From NCBI GenBank assembly GCA_028817435.1, contig JAPPPQ010000059.1, positions 1-64,000 of the forward strand: 64,000 bases of DNA, read 5' to 3'. Positions 43,436-58,563 of this stretch are shown here, in pieces (within the stretch, counting starts at the first letter, position 1; each line of letters begins with the position of its first letter). The notes beneath the pieces were generated by a model that was not told the origin of the DNA, did no database searches, and saw nothing but the letters and a program-made list of their open reading frames with translations. This DNA is from Deltaproteobacteria bacterium. GTDB lineage: Bacteria > Myxococcota_A > UBA9160 > UBA6930. The position numbers and the translations under genes are program-made.

Positions 43436-45877
43436 ATGCCGAAAATGCCCTCGATTCGCAGGCTCTCGGAGAGCGCCGCCGGGGCGGCCTTTGGCGCGGC
43501 GCTGGCCGTGATGCTGGCACCTGCGGCGCTCGCCCAGCAGGCCGCGCAGGCCCCGGGGGGAGAGGAGGCGCGCGGCGGGGCGATTGAGGAGATCATCGTC
43601 ACGGCCACGCGCCGGGCGGACAACCTGCAGAATGTGGCGGGGGCCATCACGGCCTTCGGGGCGCAGGCCATTGAGCGCGACCGCATCTACGGGCTTGAGG
43701 ATGTGGCCTCGCGCACGCCGGGCTTTCTGATCGGGCAGCAATCGCCGGCCGCGCCGGAGCTGACGATTCGCGGCATCGGCTCCGATGACCGCGAGGCGGG
43801 CAGCGACCGCTCGGTGGTGCTGTTTGTGGACGAGGTCTATATCGGCCGCGCTGGCGGCAGCGCCCTGGATTTCTTCGATCTGGAGCGCATTGAGGTGTTG
43901 CGCGGGCCGCAGGGAACGCTCTGGGGGCGCAATGTGGTGGGTGGCGCGGTCAATCTGGTAACGCGCAAGCCGGGGCCGGACCCCTACGCGCGGCTCAGCA
44001 TCGGCGCGGGCAACTACGATCTGCTGGAAGGCCGGGGCGTGATCAACCGGCCGCTCGGAGGCGACCTTGCGGCCAAGCTCTCGTTCAGCTTCCGCGACCG
44101 CGACGGATATTCGCGCAACACCGTCTTCGATGAGGATGTGGACGGCGGCAACAACGCCAGCCTGCGCGGCCAACTGCGCTACGGCGGCGAAAGGCTCACC
44201 GCCCTCTTCACGGCCGATTACAACACCGAGCAGGTGGACGGCATCAGCTCCAAGCCGGATCCGGTGGGGGGCGCCTTCAATGTTACAGGCCGCGGGTCGC
44301 AGCTCCTGCCGGACATCCGGCTGGTGGGCAACAACATCGTTGGCGAATTGGACCGCCATATCTACGGCGCAACGCTGCGGCTGGATTACGAGACGAGCGC
44401 CGCGGTGTGGACCTCGCTCACCAGCTTCCGCCGCGTGGCCTTCGAGGTGCAGCGCGATATTGCCGGCGCCACGCTGAGCGGCGGCAGCCCGGGGCAGAAC
44501 TTGGGATTCGCCTCCATTGCGCTGAACGACGAGGCTTCCAACACCTTCTCGCAGGAACTGCGAGTCTCTTCGCCCTCCGATGCGGGGGCGTGGGAGTGGA
44601 CCGTCGGCGTGTTCTACCTGTTTGAGGATATTGAGCGCGACCAGATTCGCGACCGAAATCTGACACGGACCCGGCCGTCGGCAATAACGATCAATGGAGT
44701 GAGTCATCCCACCCCGGCAGGGGAGTGCGATCTGGGCATGACGCACCCCACAAACCCGCAGCCGGCGTGGCTGCCGGTGGATGGTTCCTGCCGCACTGTC
44801 TCTCGCCCGCTCTTCGATCAGGCGATTGAAGCGACCAGCTACGCGGCCTTCGCCCAGGCGACCTGGGCGGCCGCCGAGCGCTTCCGCATCACCCTCGGCG
44901 GGCGTTACACCAGTGACTCCAAAGACTTCGATCTAGAGGTGAGCAGCACACGGGAGCGGCTGCCGCGCGGAGATGCCAACTTCGGCGATCCCGCCGCCTT
45001 GAACGCAGTGAACTCGTTGAACCCCGCAGGTGAAGAATTCACCCTGTCCGTTGATGACAGTTGGAGCGCCTTCACCCCAAAGCTCACCCTGGATTACCAG
45101 TTGGCAGAAAATGTGCTGGCCTATGTGACCGCCTCCCGGGGTTACAAGAGTGGTGGATTCAACGGCTTGGGGCCGAGCGAGGAGGAAGCCAGAAAATCCT
45201 TCGATCCGGAATACGCATGGAATTATGAAATCGGCGTCAAGTCGCAATTTTTCGCCGACCGGCTGCGCTTCAATCTGGCCGGCTTCCGCATGGACTTCGA
45301 GGATCTGCAGCTTCGCCGGCGCATTCTCCGCGTGCCGGGCGACGACGCCAGCGCGGTGGTGATAGTCTTCAACGCCGCCGAGGCCGAGATCATTGGCGCG
45401 GAGCTGGAGATGGTGTTCGCGCCTTCCCCCAACTTGATTTTGTCGGGCAGCTACTCCTTCCTCGATACCGAGGCCACCCGATTCACCGACATAGCCGATG
45501 ACCGCTTCACCGGCACGCAGTTGCCCCGCGCGCCGGAGAGCGCCTTCACGCTGGCGGCGGAATACAGCATTCCGCTGCGGGCGGGCGAGCTCAGCCTGCG
45601 CGGCGAATACCGCCAGCGGGGAGATCACTGGTTTGGCATCGGCGAACTCACCCACCGCAGCGGCGTTCGCGCCGGTTTTGAAGAGGCATACGGAATCTTC
45701 GACGCCAGCCTCACCTACACCCCCAATGGCGAGGGCTTGGGCTTCGCCATCTGGGCCAAGAACCTCACCGACGAGGAATATCGGAGCCATGTGCAACCGA
45801 TTTCAAGCGGTGCAGGGGGCATCACCCGTTACGGCGATCCTGCAACCTGGGGCGCCACGCTGACCTGGAGTTACTGA
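43436..45877 (+). CDS. TonB-dependent outer-membrane receptor 1
   Basis: An 813-aa active-transport receptor. Signal peptide with AAFGAALAVMLAPAALAQQ, TonB box IEEIIVTATRR, plug motifs (LTIRGIGSDDREAGSD; ERIEVLRGPQGTLWGRNVVGGAVN), then a 22-strand-type barrel ending in aromatic TWSY. The group is the iron-complex/organic-substrate type common in proteobacteria of aquatic or host-associated habitats. It leads an operon with TRAP subunits, so it probably brings a carboxylate too large for porins, rather than iron, across the outer membrane; this is inferred from context. It has a clear promoter/operator. Confidence 0.92.
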   Translation: MPKMPSIRRLSESAAGAAFGAALAVMLAPAALAQQAAQAPGGEEARGGAIEEIIVTATRRADNLQNVAGAITAFGAQAIERDRIYGLEDVASRTPGFLIGQQSPAAPELTIRGIGSDDREAGSDRSVVLFVDEVYIGRAGGSALDFFDLERIEVLRGPQGTLWGRNVVGGAVNLVTRKPGPDPYARLSIGAGNYDLLEGRGVINRPLGGDLAAKLSFSFRDRDGYSRNTVFDEDVDGGNNASLRGQLRYGGERLTALFTADYNTEQVDGISSKPDPVGGAFNVTGRGSQLLPDIRLVGNNIVGELDRHIYGATLRLDYETSAAVWTSLTSFRRVAFEVQRDIAGATLSGGSPGQNLGFASIALNDEASNTFSQELRVSSPSDAGAWEWTVGVFYLFEDIERDQIRDRNLTRTRPSAITINGVSHPTPAGECDLGMTHPTNPQPAWLPVDGSCRTVSRPLFDQAIEATSYAAFAQATWAAAERFRITLGGRYTSDSKDFDLEVSSTRERLPRGDANFGDPAALNAVNSLNPAGEEFTLSVDDSWSAFTPKLTLDYQLAENVLAYVTASRGYKSGGFNGLGPSEEEARKSFDPEYAWNYEIGVKSQFFADRLRFNLAGFRMDFEDLQLRRRILRVPGDDASAVVIVFNAAEAEIIGAELEMVFAPSPNLILSGSYSFLDTEATRFTDIADDRFTGTQLPRAPESAFTLAAEYSIPLRAGELSLRGEYRQRGDHWFGIGELTHRSGVRAGFEEAYGIFDASLTYTPNGEGLGFAIWAKNLTDEEYRSHVQPISSGAGGITRYGDPATWGATLTWSY

Positions 45878-52428: not shown

Positions 52429-53283
52429 TCAGCTTCCTCCCGGTTCGCCAGCCGCGGCCAGCACTTGTTGCGCCCGCTTGAATACGGGCAATTCCACCAG
52501 CGCGCCATCCAGTTGACCGAGCCCGCCGCTCTGATAAGCCGCCACCACGCGGCGCGCGTGTGCAACTTCGCCGGCGCTGGGCGCAAGCGCGCGGTGAATG
52601 GGCTCAATTTGCCTGGGGTGAATAGCGCAGCGCGCGCGAATGCCCAGCGCGCGGCTGCGCCGCGTTTCGGCTTCGCAACCCTGCGCATCGTCCAGCGCCA
52701 GGTAGGGCACATCAAAGAGCGTTGCGCCGTTGGCGGCGCAGGCGCAGGCCAAACGCGAGCGCGCGTAGAGCAGCGCCTCCCAGGTGGTTTCGCAGCCCGC
52801 CTCGGCGGCGAAATCCACCGCGCCGAACAGCACGCATTCCGCGCGGGGGTGGGCCGCAATCTCGTAAGCGCCTTCCAGCGCATCGGGCGATTCGATCAGC
52901 GGAAACAAAAAGCCGGCGCTGGGCGGCAGCACCTTGTCCAGCAGGCGCAGCTCTGCGGCGTGGCGCAGCTTCGGAATCATCACGAAATCTGCAGAGCAGG
53001 CGGGTTCGGCCAGGGCCAGCAGATCGGCCTGGCCGGCGGCGGTATGCAGCGCATTGATGCGCAGCCCCGCCGGCGGGCCGCCGCGCCGCCCGCCCAGCCA
53101 GGCCAGCACCGCCTTGCGCGCCTCCGGCTTGTCGGCTTCGGCCACGGCGTCCTCCAAATCCAGGCAAACCAGGTCGGCCCCGGCCCGGTGGGCCTTATTG
53201 AAGCGATCCGGCCGGGAGCCGGGGACGAAGAGCAGGCTGCGGTAGCTGCGGTGGGGAGCGGCGGCCATAATTTGTCCGGACAT
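52429..53283 (-). CDS. CitE-like (HpcH/HpaI) CoA-ester lyase
   Basis: A 284-aa TIM-barrel lyase of the citrate-lyase-beta family. RSLLFVPGSRPDRFNKA, the metal/CoA-binding LVCLDLEDAVAEADK, FPLIESPDAL and LFGAVDFAAEAG are diagnostic. Relatives cleave citramalyl-CoA, malyl-CoA or beta-methylmalyl-CoA. ATG 53283 is preferred, with a G-rich Shine-Dalgarno region; a second ATG at 53268 lies just after the palindrome. The operator overlaps the first codons. It begins the CitE/MaoC/CaiB operon. With the hydratase it would split a branched hydroxyacyl-CoA to acetyl-CoA or glyoxylate plus a keto acid. Confidence 0.9.
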   Translation of the reverse strand: MSGQIMAAAPHRSYRSLLFVPGSRPDRFNKAHRAGADLVCLDLEDAVAEADKPEARKAVLAWLGGRRGGPPAGLRINALHTAAGQADLLALAEPACSADFVMIPKLRHAAELRLLDKVLPPSAGFLFPLIESPDALEGAYEIAAHPRAECVLFGAVDFAAEAGCETTWEALLYARSRLACACAANGATLFDVPYLALDDAQGCEAETRRSRALGIRARCAIHPRQIEPIHRALAPSAGEVAHARRVVAAYQSGGLGQLDGALVELPVFKRAQQVLAAAGEPGGS

Positions 53284-53285
53284 AT
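53270..53285. promoter_or_regulatory. Second GntR-type palindrome
   Basis: ATTTGTCCGGACATAT matches the perfect site at 43392-43407 in 14 of 16 positions and keeps the TGTCCGGACA core. It spans the 5' end of the CitE-like gene and the 30-bp gap after the thioesterase gene. Binding here would block transcription or translation initiation of the lyase operon. Confidence 0.7.
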
Positions 53286-53313
53286 TACAGCCCCGCCCGC
53301 CCCGCGCCACCCC

Positions 53314-54204
53314 TCACAAATCGCCCCGGTTCGGCGCGGGCGCGGCGCGCTTGGGGTCGGTGCGCCGCATCAGGCCCTCCTGGGCCACGCTGCCAATGCG
53401 CGGCCCCTGCCTGGCGAACAGCGCCCCGTGCACAAAGCCGCGCGCGCCAAAGGCCGTCGGGCTCTCCTGCACATACAAAATCCAGTCGTCCACGCGCAGC
53501 GGACGGTGAAACCACACCGCGTGGTCCAGGCTCGCCATCATCACATCGCGGCGGCGCTTGCGGTGCGGGCGGTAGATGTTGTCCACCAGCCCCATATCCG
53601 ATGCGTAGGTGAGCAGGCACTGGTGCAGCAGCGGGTCGTCCGGCAGCGGGCTGGGCGCGCGCAGCCACACCAGGTTGGGGCTGCGGTTCGGCGCGCCGCC
53701 AAACCAGCTGTGGGCCTGGGTAGAGCGCATTTCAATGGCCCTGGGCCGCGCCAGCCAACTGCGCAGCGGCTCGGGCACCTGCGAGCCCAGCTCGCGCGCG
53801 CGCTCTTCCCAGGTGGGCAGGCCCTCCGGCGGCGGCGCATCCGGCATTTCGTCCTGGTGCTCGTAGCTCGGCTCCGGCTCGTGGAACGAGGCCGACATAT
53901 TGAAGATGGCCTTCTCGTGCTGCCGCGCCACAACGCGCCGCGTGGTGAAAGAAGAGCCATCTCGAATCCGGTGCACATCATAAACCACCGGCAAATCGGG
54001 GTCTCCCGGCCGCAAAAAGTATCCGTGCAGCGAGTGCGCCCGCCGCTCTTTCACCGTGCGCCCCGCCGCCGCCAGCGCCTGCGCCGCCACCTGCCCGCCA
54101 AACAGCCGCATCGGCCCCCGCTCCTCATTGCGCCCCCGAAAGCGATCCGGCTCCACCTCCTCCAGCCGCAGCAAATCCACCAACCGCCCCAACGCCTCGT
54201 GCAT
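53314..54204 (-). CDS. tesB: Acyl-CoA thioesterase II
   Basis: A 296-aa double hot-dog thioesterase that hydrolyses acyl-CoA to free acid and CoA. FGGQVAAQALAAAGRTV, HSLHGYFLRPGDP, FTTRRVVARQ and the second-domain YASDMGLVD plus SLDHAVWFHRPLRVDDW carry the TesB signature, with the Asp/Thr/Gln active-site type. ATG 54204 lies at the edge of an AT-rich intergenic region; the Shine-Dalgarno signal is weak (AGAAGAG). It is upstream of the CitE operon on the same strand, but the operator between them suggests separate control. Confidence 0.92.
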   Translation of the reverse strand: MHEALGRLVDLLRLEEVEPDRFRGRNEERGPMRLFGGQVAAQALAAAGRTVKERRAHSLHGYFLRPGDPDLPVVYDVHRIRDGSSFTTRRVVARQHEKAIFNMSASFHEPEPSYEHQDEMPDAPPPEGLPTWEERARELGSQVPEPLRSWLARPRAIEMRSTQAHSWFGGAPNRSPNLVWLRAPSPLPDDPLLHQCLLTYASDMGLVDNIYRPHRKRRRDVMMASLDHAVWFHRPLRVDDWILYVQESPTAFGARGFVHGALFARQGPRIGSVAQEGLMRRTDPKRAAPAPNRGDL

Positions 54205-54588
54205 TATTTTGTCTCTTCTCGCTGCTGCCTGCGCGGAGCAGGAAGCGGTATTTAGCCGTTTGAAGTCAATTTATTGCCGTAATGGGGGTATTCAGAGGCT
54301 TTTTAGTGCTTTATCTCTTTTTATTGCTCGTTTTCGGCGATTTTCCTGCAAATCCGGCGGATAGTAAAAATTGAGACTAGGGAATTTTTTCTCGTTTCTC
54401 CTTGCCTTTTGATTATAGAAGGATTTAACCTTGCGGGCAAAGAAATGCTGGTCGAATGCCTGCCAGCCTGCTCAGCGCGGATGTGGTGACGAATTACGGA
54501 GAACCACGGAGCTGCGGCGTTGATTTGATTTGGCAATACAGAAGCTCTGACGAGGCCTCCCCAACTCAAAGCATAAAAGGAGCACGCC
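54205..54588. other. AT-rich intergenic region between tesB and TonB receptor 2
   Basis: 384 bases with clearly more A/T than the flanks and no convincing gene. It must contain divergent promoters for tesB (minus) and the receptor (plus), but I see no pair of boxes with good spacing. AAAAGGAG at 54575-54582 is the receptor Shine-Dalgarno sequence. An open frame from 54456 passes through it but lacks a start signal and coding character. Confidence 0.6.
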
Positions 54589-57269
54589 ATGACTTTTTCG
54601 ACAACTTACCAAGAGGCGGCACCCGACCTGCGCAACCGTGCCATGCATCGCGCCCTCTCGTCCTTCGCTGGGTGTTTCCCCGCGGGGGGGGGGGGGGGGA
54701 CAGGCAGGCTGTTCTCAGCTTCCTGCGCTGCATCGGGCTCGCTCTGGTTTTGCTGTTCTCGGCGGATGGCGTGGATGCGGGGGAGTTTCCGGGAGAGCAG
54801 GTGATAGAGGAGATTGTGGTCACCGGTTCGCACATTCGCCGGGATCAGCAGCGCGATCTGGCGTCGCCGTTGCAATCTCTCAGCAGCGAGGAGATCGCCG
54901 AACAGGGAGCGAAGGATATCCCTGATATCATTCGCAACCTGACCGTCAGCACTGGGGCGGAATACCAGGTCAGCGGCCTGAATCAGCCTCAGACGGCAGG
55001 GACCTCGAATATCAACCTTCGCGGGCTTGGCCTGAGTTCGACCTTGATCCTGATAAACGGGCGCAGGCAGACGCTGTCCTCTATTGCCAAGCAGGATGAC
55101 GGTTCGTCTTTCGTGGATACCAATTCACTGGTTCCCATGATTATGATTGAGAAGATAGACATCTTGAAAGATGGCGCGGCGGCGACTTATGGCACGGATG
55201 CGGTTGCCGGCGTGGTGAACTTTATCACCCATAAGAAATTCGAGGGATTCAAGACAGAGCTGAGCTACCAAGGAGACGGGCACGACGATTTGTCAATTGG
55301 CGCGATGTTCGGCGGGGCTGGCGGTGCCAGCAATTTCGTGATTGCAGCTAGCTACCAGGATCGGAATATTCTGGAAGCGGGCGAGCGCGACTGGCCCTCC
55401 GGCACAGCGCTTTCCAGTTTGGGTCAACCCGGAGCCTTCCGATTGAGCTCGGGGAGTTTCATGGCGGATCCGGCCTGCGGGGCTGGTGGCACATTTCTCC
55501 GTTTTGGAGGCACTTTTTGCGGAATGGACATCACGCCGTTTTTCGACCTCATGCCGGAAGAGAGTCGTCTCAATGTTGCAGCGAATTTCTCCCATGAATT
55601 CAGCGAATCATTGAGCGCTTATGTCGAATTCTCCTATGCGGCGAACGAGGGAGAAACGAGGGCTACTCCTTCGTATCCGATCCTGAGGAGCTTTCCGCAG
55701 ATTCCGGCCACCGATCCGAACAACCCCTTCGGCGAGCAGGTGATGTTCTTTGGGCGAACGATTGGGCCCGATGGTGCCCCGACCCTGTTGACTTTCGATT
55801 ATGAAACATGGCGCGTTGCAGGGGATCTAACTGGAGATTTGTGGAACTGGTCTTGGAATCTCTCTGCTACCTACAGCACAAATGAAGCTGATGTGGGAAA
55901 CGGCGATACGGTGATATCTCGCCTTCAGGCTGGTCTCGCCGGCACTGGCGGTCCAAACGGCAACGAATTTTACAGTCCCTTCGGGGGAGCGACAAATTCT
56001 GCCGGGCTGATTGCTTATCTCCAAGAAGATTCTCTTCAAGCGGGTGAATCATCTCTGCTCACCGTGGAATTGATCACCAGCGGTGAAATGTTTGATATTC
56101 CTGCAGGTGCAGTATCGGCTGCTTTGGGAGCCCAATATCGGTCGGAGGATCTGCAAGTTGATCTCGATGATATTCTGAATGCCGACGATTTCTACACATT
56201 GCCGGGGGGTGCGGATTTTTCGGTAGATCGTGATGTGTTCGCATTTTTTGGTGAAATTATTGTTCCGTTGCATACTGCACTTGAATTGCAACTGTCTGCC
56301 CGATACGAGGATTATGGCGACAATGTAGACAGCGTTGATCCAAAAGTGGCGGTCTTGTGGGTTCCGGTGTCCTGGATTTCCATGCGCGGCTCGTTTGGGA
56401 CATCATTCCGTGCTCCCTCGTTGCTTCAAACAAACGGCAGGCTGGGCGCCAATGATGTGGTCAATGATCCGGCCACGAATTTGAACAGTCTGTTCCGCAC
56501 GATCAACACCAGCGGAAATCCGAACTTGAAGCCGGAACAGGCGGATGTGCTGAACTTTGGCATTACACTTTCGCCCATAGAATCGCTGGAAATCAACCTG
56601 GATTGGTGGAGCTTTGACTACACAGATCTCATCGTGAAGGAAAGTGCGCAGTCTCTGATCAACCAGGCGTTCGCGGACACGAATGCAGGAATGACAGGAA
56701 CGGCTGCCCAGAGAAAAGTTGTCAGGGTTGGTGGTTTCATTACCCAGATCAATAGCGAATTCATCAATGCGTCTTCGATGGAAGCGGATGGGATTGATTT
56801 CCAAATTCGCTATGGAATGGACACTTTCCTGGGGCAGCTTGAATTTGGCTCGGAATGGACCTATGTTTCCGGTTTTGAGATTCAGGAGAGTGCGAGTTCC
56901 GCGGTTGTTGAAGCGGTGGGTAGCAGGAATAACTCCAATTTCGCTAGGCCCGTCCCGGAGTTGCGCGGAAACATCTCTGCGAATTGGCAGAACGGAAACC
57001 AGTCGGCTTACCTGGTAGCTCGATATATCGATTCCTACAAGGATGACGCAAGTTCGAATGCAAAGATATCCAGCCATACCACGGTGGATTTGAGCTACAG
57101 CTATTCATTTGGGAGTATGCTGGGCGGCGCGGAATCGAAGGTCACACTGGGAGCAATCAACCTCTTCGACCGGGATCCGCCCGCCGTGACCACATTCATC
57201 GGATTTGATGTTCAGACGCACGATCCTCGAGGGAGGTTGCTCTACGCCAAGCTGTCATATTCCTTCTGA
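54589..57269 (+). CDS. TonB-dependent receptor 2, out of frame at a 16-G tract (possible phase-variable gene)
   Basis: The body encodes an outer-membrane receptor: hydrophobic signal segment (FLRCIGLALVLLFSADGVDAGE), TonB box IEEIVVTGSHIRR, plug with NINLRGLGLSSTLILINGRRQT and EKIDILKDGAAATYGTDAVAGVVNF, and a barrel ending in YAKLSYSF. ATG 54589 has a strong AAAAGGAGCACGCC before it, but its frame reads only 71 codons and stops at 54804. The receptor body is in another frame, and the two meet at 16 consecutive G (54684-54699). One extra G, or two fewer, would join them into a protein of about 890 aa. As given the gene is off. The long frame from 54456 also covers the body, but starts without a signal. 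Composition is AT-richer than its neighbours. Confidence 0.8.
54684..54699 (+). repeat. Homopolymeric G tract (16 G) in TonB receptor 2
   Basis: Sixteen G in a row, within the codons before the signal peptide. The start frame (codons from 54589) and the body frame differ by one base across it. Seventeen or fourteen G would restore one frame. Such tracts mutate by slipped-strand mispairing and drive on/off switching of surface proteins in many bacteria; they are also prone to sequencing error. Confidence 0.9.
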
Positions 57270-57351
57270 TCTCTGGCGCGGTAGGCTATTCTCTCCTCCA
57301 GCGCGCGGGGCCGCCTTGTCTCATGGCAGGGCGGCGGAGGAGTGAGGGCGT

Positions 57352-58563
57352 ATGGCGAATCATCCGAGGCGGGAGGGGGTGCGGCTGCTGGATCGGTTCT
57401 TTTATCTGGATCCGCATGAGCACTTTCGCTGGATGCGGGAGCATGCGCCGGTTTACTGGGATGAGACGGCGGATGGGGGGCTTTGGGGGGTGTCGCGCTA
57501 CCAGGACATTATGCGGGTTTCGCGGCAGCCGGAGGTGTTCTGCTCGGGGCAGAGCTCGCGGCCGGAGCGCGGGACGCTGGTGCCCTCGATGATCAATCTG
57601 GACGATCCGCTGCACAAGCGGCGGCGCAAGCTGGTGAACGAGGGCTTTACGCCGCGCCGCATTGCCGCGCAGGAGCCGGGGCTGCGGCGGCTCATTAACG
57701 AGTTGATGGATTCGGTGGCGGGGGCGGGGCGCTGCGATTTTGTGCGGGATGTGGCGCGCTGGATTCCGATGATCGTCATTGGCGATATGCTCGGCGTTGC
57801 GCCCGCAGACCGCGAAATGCTGCTGGAATGGTCGGACTGGCTGCTCGGCGCGGGCGAGGGCACAGAGCACGCCAGCGAGGAAGAGTGCCGCGCCCGGCAG
57901 CAGCAGGCCGCGGTCTCCTACTTCGCATATCAGCGCCAGGTGGTGGCCGAACGCCGCGCGCGCCCGCGGGACGATCTGGTTTCGGTGCTGGTGCACGCGC
58001 AGATAGACGGCGACAAGCTCGACGAGGAAGAGGTGCTGCAGGAAAGTCTGCTCATTCTCATCGGCGGCGACGAAACCACGCGCCATGTAATGACGGGCGG
58101 TTTGGAGCAACTCATCCGCAACCCCGGCCAGAGGCAAAAGCTCATCGAAAACCCGGCGCTGATTCCCGGCGCGGTGGAAGAAATGCTGCGCTGGGTAAGC
58201 CCCATCGTGAACATGAACCGCACGCTCACCCGCAATGTGGAAATGCACGGCGAAATTTTGCGCGAGGGCGACCGGCTGCTGCTGCTCTATCCCTCGGGCA
58301 ACCGCGACGAGCGCGTCTTTGCGCGGCCGGATGTCTTCGATGTGACCCGCGAGCCGAACCGCCATGTGGCCTTCGGCGGCTTCGGCACCCACCACTGCCT
58401 GGGCGCAACCCTGGCCCGCCTGGAACTGCGCGTGCTCTTCGAGGAACTGCTGCGCCGCTGGCCGGATATTGAGCTGGCCAGCAGCGAGCCGCTGCGCCGC
58501 CGCCCCAGCAACTTCATCACCGGCATTGAAGAAATGCCGGTGCGCTTCACGCCGGATCGCTGA
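57352..58563 (+). CDS. Cytochrome P450
   Basis: A 403-aa soluble bacterial P450. The heme ligand is C349 in FGGFGTHHCLG, the ExxR pair is E277/R280, and the oxygen-binding helix I has IGGDETT (237-243), with Glu-Thr where many have Asp-Thr. NLDDPLHKRRRKLVNEGFTPR and the overall pattern resemble the actinobacterial and proteobacterial P450s that act on steroids or terpenoids (CYP125/CYP142-like groups), but substrate assignment is not possible by eye. GGAGGAGTGAG precedes ATG 57352. No ferredoxin or ferredoxin reductase is adjacent. Confidence 0.93.
   Translation: MANHPRREGVRLLDRFFYLDPHEHFRWMREHAPVYWDETADGGLWGVSRYQDIMRVSRQPEVFCSGQSSRPERGTLVPSMINLDDPLHKRRRKLVNEGFTPRRIAAQEPGLRRLINELMDSVAGAGRCDFVRDVARWIPMIVIGDMLGVAPADREMLLEWSDWLLGAGEGTEHASEEECRARQQQAAVSYFAYQRQVVAERRARPRDDLVSVLVHAQIDGDKLDEEEVLQESLLILIGGDETTRHVMTGGLEQLIRNPGQRQKLIENPALIPGAVEEMLRWVSPIVNMNRTLTRNVEMHGEILREGDRLLLLYPSGNRDERVFARPDVFDVTREPNRHVAFGGFGTHHCLGATLARLELRVLFEELLRRWPDIELASSEPLRRRPSNFITGIEEMPVRFTPDR

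Follow-up and report, generated by a model that had tools for sequence, protein, structure and literature searches.

A gene for a TonB-dependent receptor in a Deltaproteobacteria bacterium carries a run of 16 guanines (G16) between its start codon and its receptor body, and we conclude that the gene is very probably a contingency locus, phase-variable by slipped-strand mispairing. The gene lies in positions 1 to 64,000 of contig JAPPPQ010000059.1 (assembly GCA_028817435.1, forward strand); this 64-kb stretch is called the window here. The genome as a whole has further long G/C tracts that share a flank, at receptor, surface and restriction genes, and this genome-wide set with its motif is more interesting than the single receptor.

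A G16 tract separates the start codon from the receptor frame

Exactly 16 G occupy positions 54684-54699. This is the sole G/C run of at least 9 in the window, the runner-up being 8, and it exceeds the usual threshold for homopolymer instability, which was taken as about 8. Using a second-order Markov estimate, we expected about 9e-6 runs of at least 16 per window, and chance is thus excluded. The features of the locus are as follows.

54577..54582, plus strand: Shine-Dalgarno sequence AAGGAG, 6 nucleotides ahead of the ATG at 54589 (from the sequence)
54589..54804, plus strand: start codon and leader frame, comprising 32 residues, the G tract and an out-of-frame stop; 71 codons at G16
54675..54683, plus strand: 5' flank TTTCCCCGC, of the type common to 30 of the 31 internal tracts in the genome
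54684..54699, plus strand: G16 tract, the proposed length switch (from the sequence)
54708..54779, plus strand: hydrophobic, signal-peptide-like stretch AVLSFLRCIGLALVLLFSADGVDA (body-frame translation, judged without a signal-peptide predictor)
54801..54830, plus strand: TonB-box-like EEIVVTG, as in other receptors of the genome (from the sequence)
54849..55214, plus strand: TonB receptor plug domain PF07715 (Pfam)
55755..57164, plus strand: TonB receptor beta-barrel PF00593 (Pfam)
54699..57269, plus strand: receptor body reading frame, 856 amino acids from the end of the tract to the stop (open reading frame and domains)

The initial annotation had described a strong Shine-Dalgarno sequence and ATG that read into a 16-G tract and stop after 71 codons, while the signal peptide and receptor body continue in another frame. 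Both parts of this description held. An AAGGAG 4-9 nucleotides before an ATG was found at 7 of the 1595 ATGs in the window (both strands); six of the seven head open reading frames (ORFs) that are 152-402 codons long. The remaining one is the ATG at 54589, whose 71-codon frame runs to the stop at 54804. Before the tract, the codon score of the leader frame is -0.16, versus -0.60 and -0.67 in the other two frames. The receptor body is read in the frame whose codons begin at positions divisible by 3; coding composition in this frame starts at the tract and is absent upstream. The Pfam matches to the plug (8.9e-18, 65.2 bits, cut-off 23.9) and the barrel (9.9e-35, 121.7 bits, cut-off 27) identify the product as a TonB-dependent receptor.

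The ATG at 54589 and the receptor body are joined in frame at 14, 17 or 20 G. The frames therefore agree with the proposal that 17 or 14 G would switch the gene on, and add 20 as a further length. With a Shine-Dalgarno-backed start before the tract and the receptor after it, a change in tract length would switch the protein frame, as expected of a contingency locus. An ordinary functional hairpin in the leader mRNA was also considered and rejected, the fold energy being not unusual (z -0.29).

Long G/C tracts are concentrated at receptor and surface genes

The assembly of which the window is part has 2.80 Mb in 67 contigs and is 91.9% complete. It contains 40 non-overlapping G/C runs of at least 12. 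Of these, 31 are internal, that is, not at a contig end or N gap, against 0.14 expected. Tract lengths peak at 13-14, and about one third of the coding tracts are poly-C. Among 60 relatives, the number of such runs ranged from 0 to 18 per genome, mostly in larger genomes.

The tracts are strongly associated with TonB receptors. Of 26 plug-domain loci in the genome, 12 have a tract within 300 base pairs 5' of the plug (P about 7e-23, computed for 33 tracts). These tracts are in the N-terminal part of the coding region, some within the signal peptide, some directly behind it and some between it and a leader. Very large Calx-beta surface proteins account for seven further tracts, found in their N-terminal or 5' regions. 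Tracts also break up the genes for a Type ISP restriction enzyme, a methylase-Mrr protein and a carbamoyltransferase, and still others stand 5' of those for MipA, for YfiO, for a penicillin-binding protein and for an AAA_13 ATPase. Genome-wide, the tracts are thus associated with surface, uptake and restriction genes, as expected of contingency loci. These are the classic contingency gene classes.

A G14 tract lies in the Type ISP restriction-modification gene (L090, G000:C53:7983-7996), shortly past the methylase motif I region, and is assembled out of frame. Another G14 tract, assembled in frame, is in a gene for a DNA methylase with a fused Mrr-like domain, about 20 codons past the DPPF motif (L088, G000:C50:36383-36396). 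A C14 tract divides a NodU/CmcH-type carbamoyltransferase into two frames (L073, G000:C24:32767-32780), and a phase-variable modification of the surface or of a glycan is possible there. In the same way, a C15 tract divides a gene with a GGGKDSL motif, which had no Pfam match, into two frames (L074, G000:C24:46432-46446). The G15 tract before the MipA-family gene (L098, G000:C58:70619-70633) is directly upstream of a promoter-like TTGACA hexamer, a position in which it would affect transcription instead of the reading frame.

Three paralogous giant Calx-beta proteins (L061, L091 and L099 on G000:C2, C55 and C61) have C16-C19 tracts just past the start codon, each assembled one base off frame. 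Mutually exclusive expression is one possible reading of this shared off-frame state, and miscounting is another. Contigs C12, C13, C39, C47 and C55 end or are scaffolded in G14-G37 runs. Because C47, C39 and C55 have a common leader ending in poly-G, further members of one paralogous family of tract genes are probably split between contigs.

The tracts have a common flank

CCC(C) is found within two bases before 30 of the 31 internal tracts, usually as T(T/C)CCCC, and TG(G/A) mostly follows the tract. Flanks of the type T(T/C)CCCC...G13-16...TGG thus accompany nearly the whole set, in both orientations. Of G runs of 4-6, 2% (70 of 3136) have CCCC at the same place. Since the motif occurs in either orientation with respect to the gene, with products of the PPGGGGVEE type and the PPPPGG type, the flank is a feature of the DNA and not a protein motif.

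The lengths of runs after CCCC are strictly bimodal, either 4-6 or at least 11, with none between. The receptor on contig C22 has a tandem paralog that is free of a tract: the paralog has CTCCCCGGGGTGG at the site where the C22 receptor has CTTCCCCCC-G13-TGG. Comparison of the two sequences suggests that a C4G4 seed expanded in situ.

Neither the 378 other genomes of the phylum nor the viral contigs were found to contain the full motif with TGG. Searches of the class (91 genomes) and the phylum (379 genomes) yielded no match elsewhere to the full form and no more than a few stray ones to the loose motif. The poly-G runs of the relatives G005 and G001 do not have the full motif, and many of them are at contig ends or inside G-rich stretches. 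Because mutS and mutL are present and intact, we rejected a loss of mismatch repair as the cause of the tracts. We suggest, as a tentative and rather unlikely explanation, that a motif-directed process, instead of random growth of scattered G runs, turns C4G4 palindromes in T(T/C)CCCC-GGGG-TGG into G13-16 tracts, in either orientation, and so seeds new contingency loci throughout the genome. Such growth would possibly proceed through hairpin-primed slippage or a dedicated element.

A model for phase variation and the state of the assembled allele

In the proposed model, the ribosome would initiate at the ATG at 54589, translate the 32-residue leader and then enter the G tract. With a tract of 14, 17 or 20 G, translation would pass into the frame that encodes the signal peptide and the receptor, and other lengths would lead to an early stop. 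Slipped-strand mispairing at replication would alter the tract by about 1 base, producing heritable and reversible ON and OFF states of the receptor. With about 30 long G/C tracts having the common flank T(T/C)CCCC-G13..16-TGG, the population would keep a standing mix of surface and uptake phenotypes. The tract, its frames, the genome-wide set, the gene classes, the common motif and its absence from relatives were read directly from the genomes, and from these we infer that tract lengths vary, that expression switches and that the resulting mixture is of use. The initial annotation suggested that phase variation of a nutrient receptor might help cells to escape phages or immune recognition.

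The frame states of the other tract receptors bear on this model. At the assembled length, a Shine-Dalgarno-backed start is in frame in 11 of the 12 tract receptors, with 13 or 14 G/C according to the need of each gene (P about 5e-5 if random). Because these 11 receptors are in frame at two different lengths, the result is a strong argument for the tracts being genuine sequence that is translated through. It also argues strongly that most tract receptors are ON in the assembled consensus.

Several observations weigh against the contingency-locus model. The evidence comes from a single assembled genome with one length per tract, and genomes of the same genus were absent among those searched. 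The leader ahead of the signal peptide is weakly coding by codon score, and the presence of intact mutS and mutL means that unusual mutability is not implied. A scan for sigma-70-like promoters found none on the plus strand of 54205-54700, the only match in the 5' region being on the minus strand. The reported receptor is the sole one of the 12 tract receptors that is assembled OFF. Finally, all four coding tracts of at least 16 (the reported G16 and the C17, C19 and C16 of Calx-beta genes) are assembled OFF, which could reflect miscounts.

These last two points lead to an alternative for the reported allele, in which most cells have the gene ON: the true tract would have 17 (or 14) G, and the count of 16 would be an assembly or sequencing error. 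We regard this as a serious possibility, nearly as likely true as false. It agrees with the in-frame state of the other 11 tract receptors within the same assembly and with the division between coding tracts of at least 16, all OFF, and those of 13-15, most of them ON. It also agrees with the difficulty of assembling long G runs here, contigs C12, C13, C39, C47 and C55 ending in runs of G14-37 and Ns. On the other hand, some shorter tracts are OFF too (C13 at L080, C14 at L073 and G14 at L090), as real phase variants would be, and 16 G is inside the natural range of hpuA (PMC3352162). The alternative concerns the state of the reported allele only: the tract would still be a contingency tract, so that the two explanations are compatible and our confidences in them need not sum to one. 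Thus, of the phase-variable receptor proposed in the initial annotation, the frame-shifting contingency tract is well supported, mainly by the 11 further tract receptors, all in frame, and by the tracts at other classic types of phase-variable gene, but the OFF state is not secure, as it depends on one assembled length of the 16-G run.

Alternative starts, artefacts and gene decay

It is also conceivable that translation starts in the body frame, at GTG 54672 or ATG 54456, in which case the receptor would be ON at 16 G and the frame of ATG 54589 would be a decoy. A compact signal peptide could be read from GTG 54672, and the body frame is open upstream to ATG 54456 (937 amino acids). However, neither codon has a Shine-Dalgarno sequence, and the body frame upstream is mostly non-coding in composition, strongly so in the stretch that follows ATG 54456, which is an unlikely start. 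In addition, every other AAGGAG-backed ATG in the window heads an ORF of real length, and three other loci (L078, L082 and L062) have the same layout of leader, tract and signal peptide from a Shine-Dalgarno-backed ATG. We consider a start in the body frame improbable.

Poly-G artefacts are common in sequencing, and the tracts could have arisen during two-colour sequencing or assembly at C4G4 hairpins instead of being real DNA. Several tracts are indeed at contig ends, and a CCCC-GGGG hairpin is possible at almost every tract. Nevertheless, this explanation is very improbable: the internal tracts have unique sequence on either side, the reading frame is kept at two different lengths across 11 receptors, and the tracts are concentrated at one gene set, while the poly-G runs of relatives do not have the motif and often fall at contig ends or in G-rich stretches. 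A decaying pseudogene with a fixed frameshift, consistent with the broken frame as assembled, is equally hard to credit, as the 856-codon body has no other lesion and retains coding composition and full domains, and the break falls exactly at a tract of the genome-wide class.

Relatives, ligand and neighborhood of the receptor

None of the NCBIfam receptor subfamilies scored above its cut-off for the reported receptor. For the haem/haemoglobin receptors of the HmbR/HpuB type, the scores were 106.4 versus a cut-off of 316.85 (TIGR01785) and 90.6 versus 323.75 (TIGR01786). The PDB matches (Cir, FepA and BtuB) were limited to the plug. Orthologs free of a tract are present in another genus (L032, 46%) and in a compost metagenome-assembled genome (L115, 39%).

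The neighbors of the receptor gene (window positions 52429-58560) are genes for an acyl-CoA thioesterase of the TesB type on one side and a cytochrome P450 on the other. A gene for an HpcH/HpaI-type lyase is also close by, and a lipid- or terpenoid-like ligand is conceivable. The window has a second TonB receptor plug, at 43625-43948, which has no long G/C tract.

Comparison with known phase-variable systems

In Neisseria meningitidis, hmbR and hpuA encode TonB-dependent haemoglobin receptors whose expression is switched by slippage in poly-G tracts within the ORFs, with 7G-19G reported for hpuA (PMC3352162). The present locus resembles them in having poly-G within the reading frame, in a frame-dependent ON/OFF switch (here predicted), in belonging to the outer-membrane receptors and in an overlapping range of lengths. 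Unlike in hmbR and hpuA, tracts are here found at 12 of the 26 receptors of one genome, they are at, before or just after the signal peptide, their lengths peak at 13-14 instead of 9-10, and they have a common CCCC...TGG flank; the scores for the haemoglobin/haem subfamily are also far below the cut-offs.

The poly-G phasome of Campylobacter comprises 5-81 phase-variable genes per strain (PMC6321876). In both cases, a genome has tens of G/C tracts, mostly within ORFs. Unlike Campylobacter, the present genome is G+C rich and has a length peak at 13-14, about one third of its coding tracts as poly-C and a fixed flank. The Type ISP (L090) and methylase-Mrr (L088) genes, with G14 inside the coding region, are candidate counterparts of phase-variable restriction-modification enzymes (phasevarions), L090 being out of frame and L088 in frame as assembled. 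Taken together, the share of receptors, the length class and the common flank differ from the known systems, whereas the locus itself would work as they do.

A limited literature search found no paper on poly-G tracts in the TonB receptors of bacteria other than Neisseria, on such tracts in symbionts or on a conserved flank, and none on such a set of tracts in uncultured bacteria; as evidence of absence, this is weak. Host-adapted, small-genome pathogens are the best-known setting of poly-G phase variation. If the contingency-locus model is correct, a single assembly of such a genome can be expected to contain false pseudogenes, and the common flank would provide a testable handle on the birth of contingency tracts. 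The genome would then make a strong case that an uncultured, G+C-rich bacterium, and not only host-adapted pathogens, hedges its bets in nutrient uptake and surface display.
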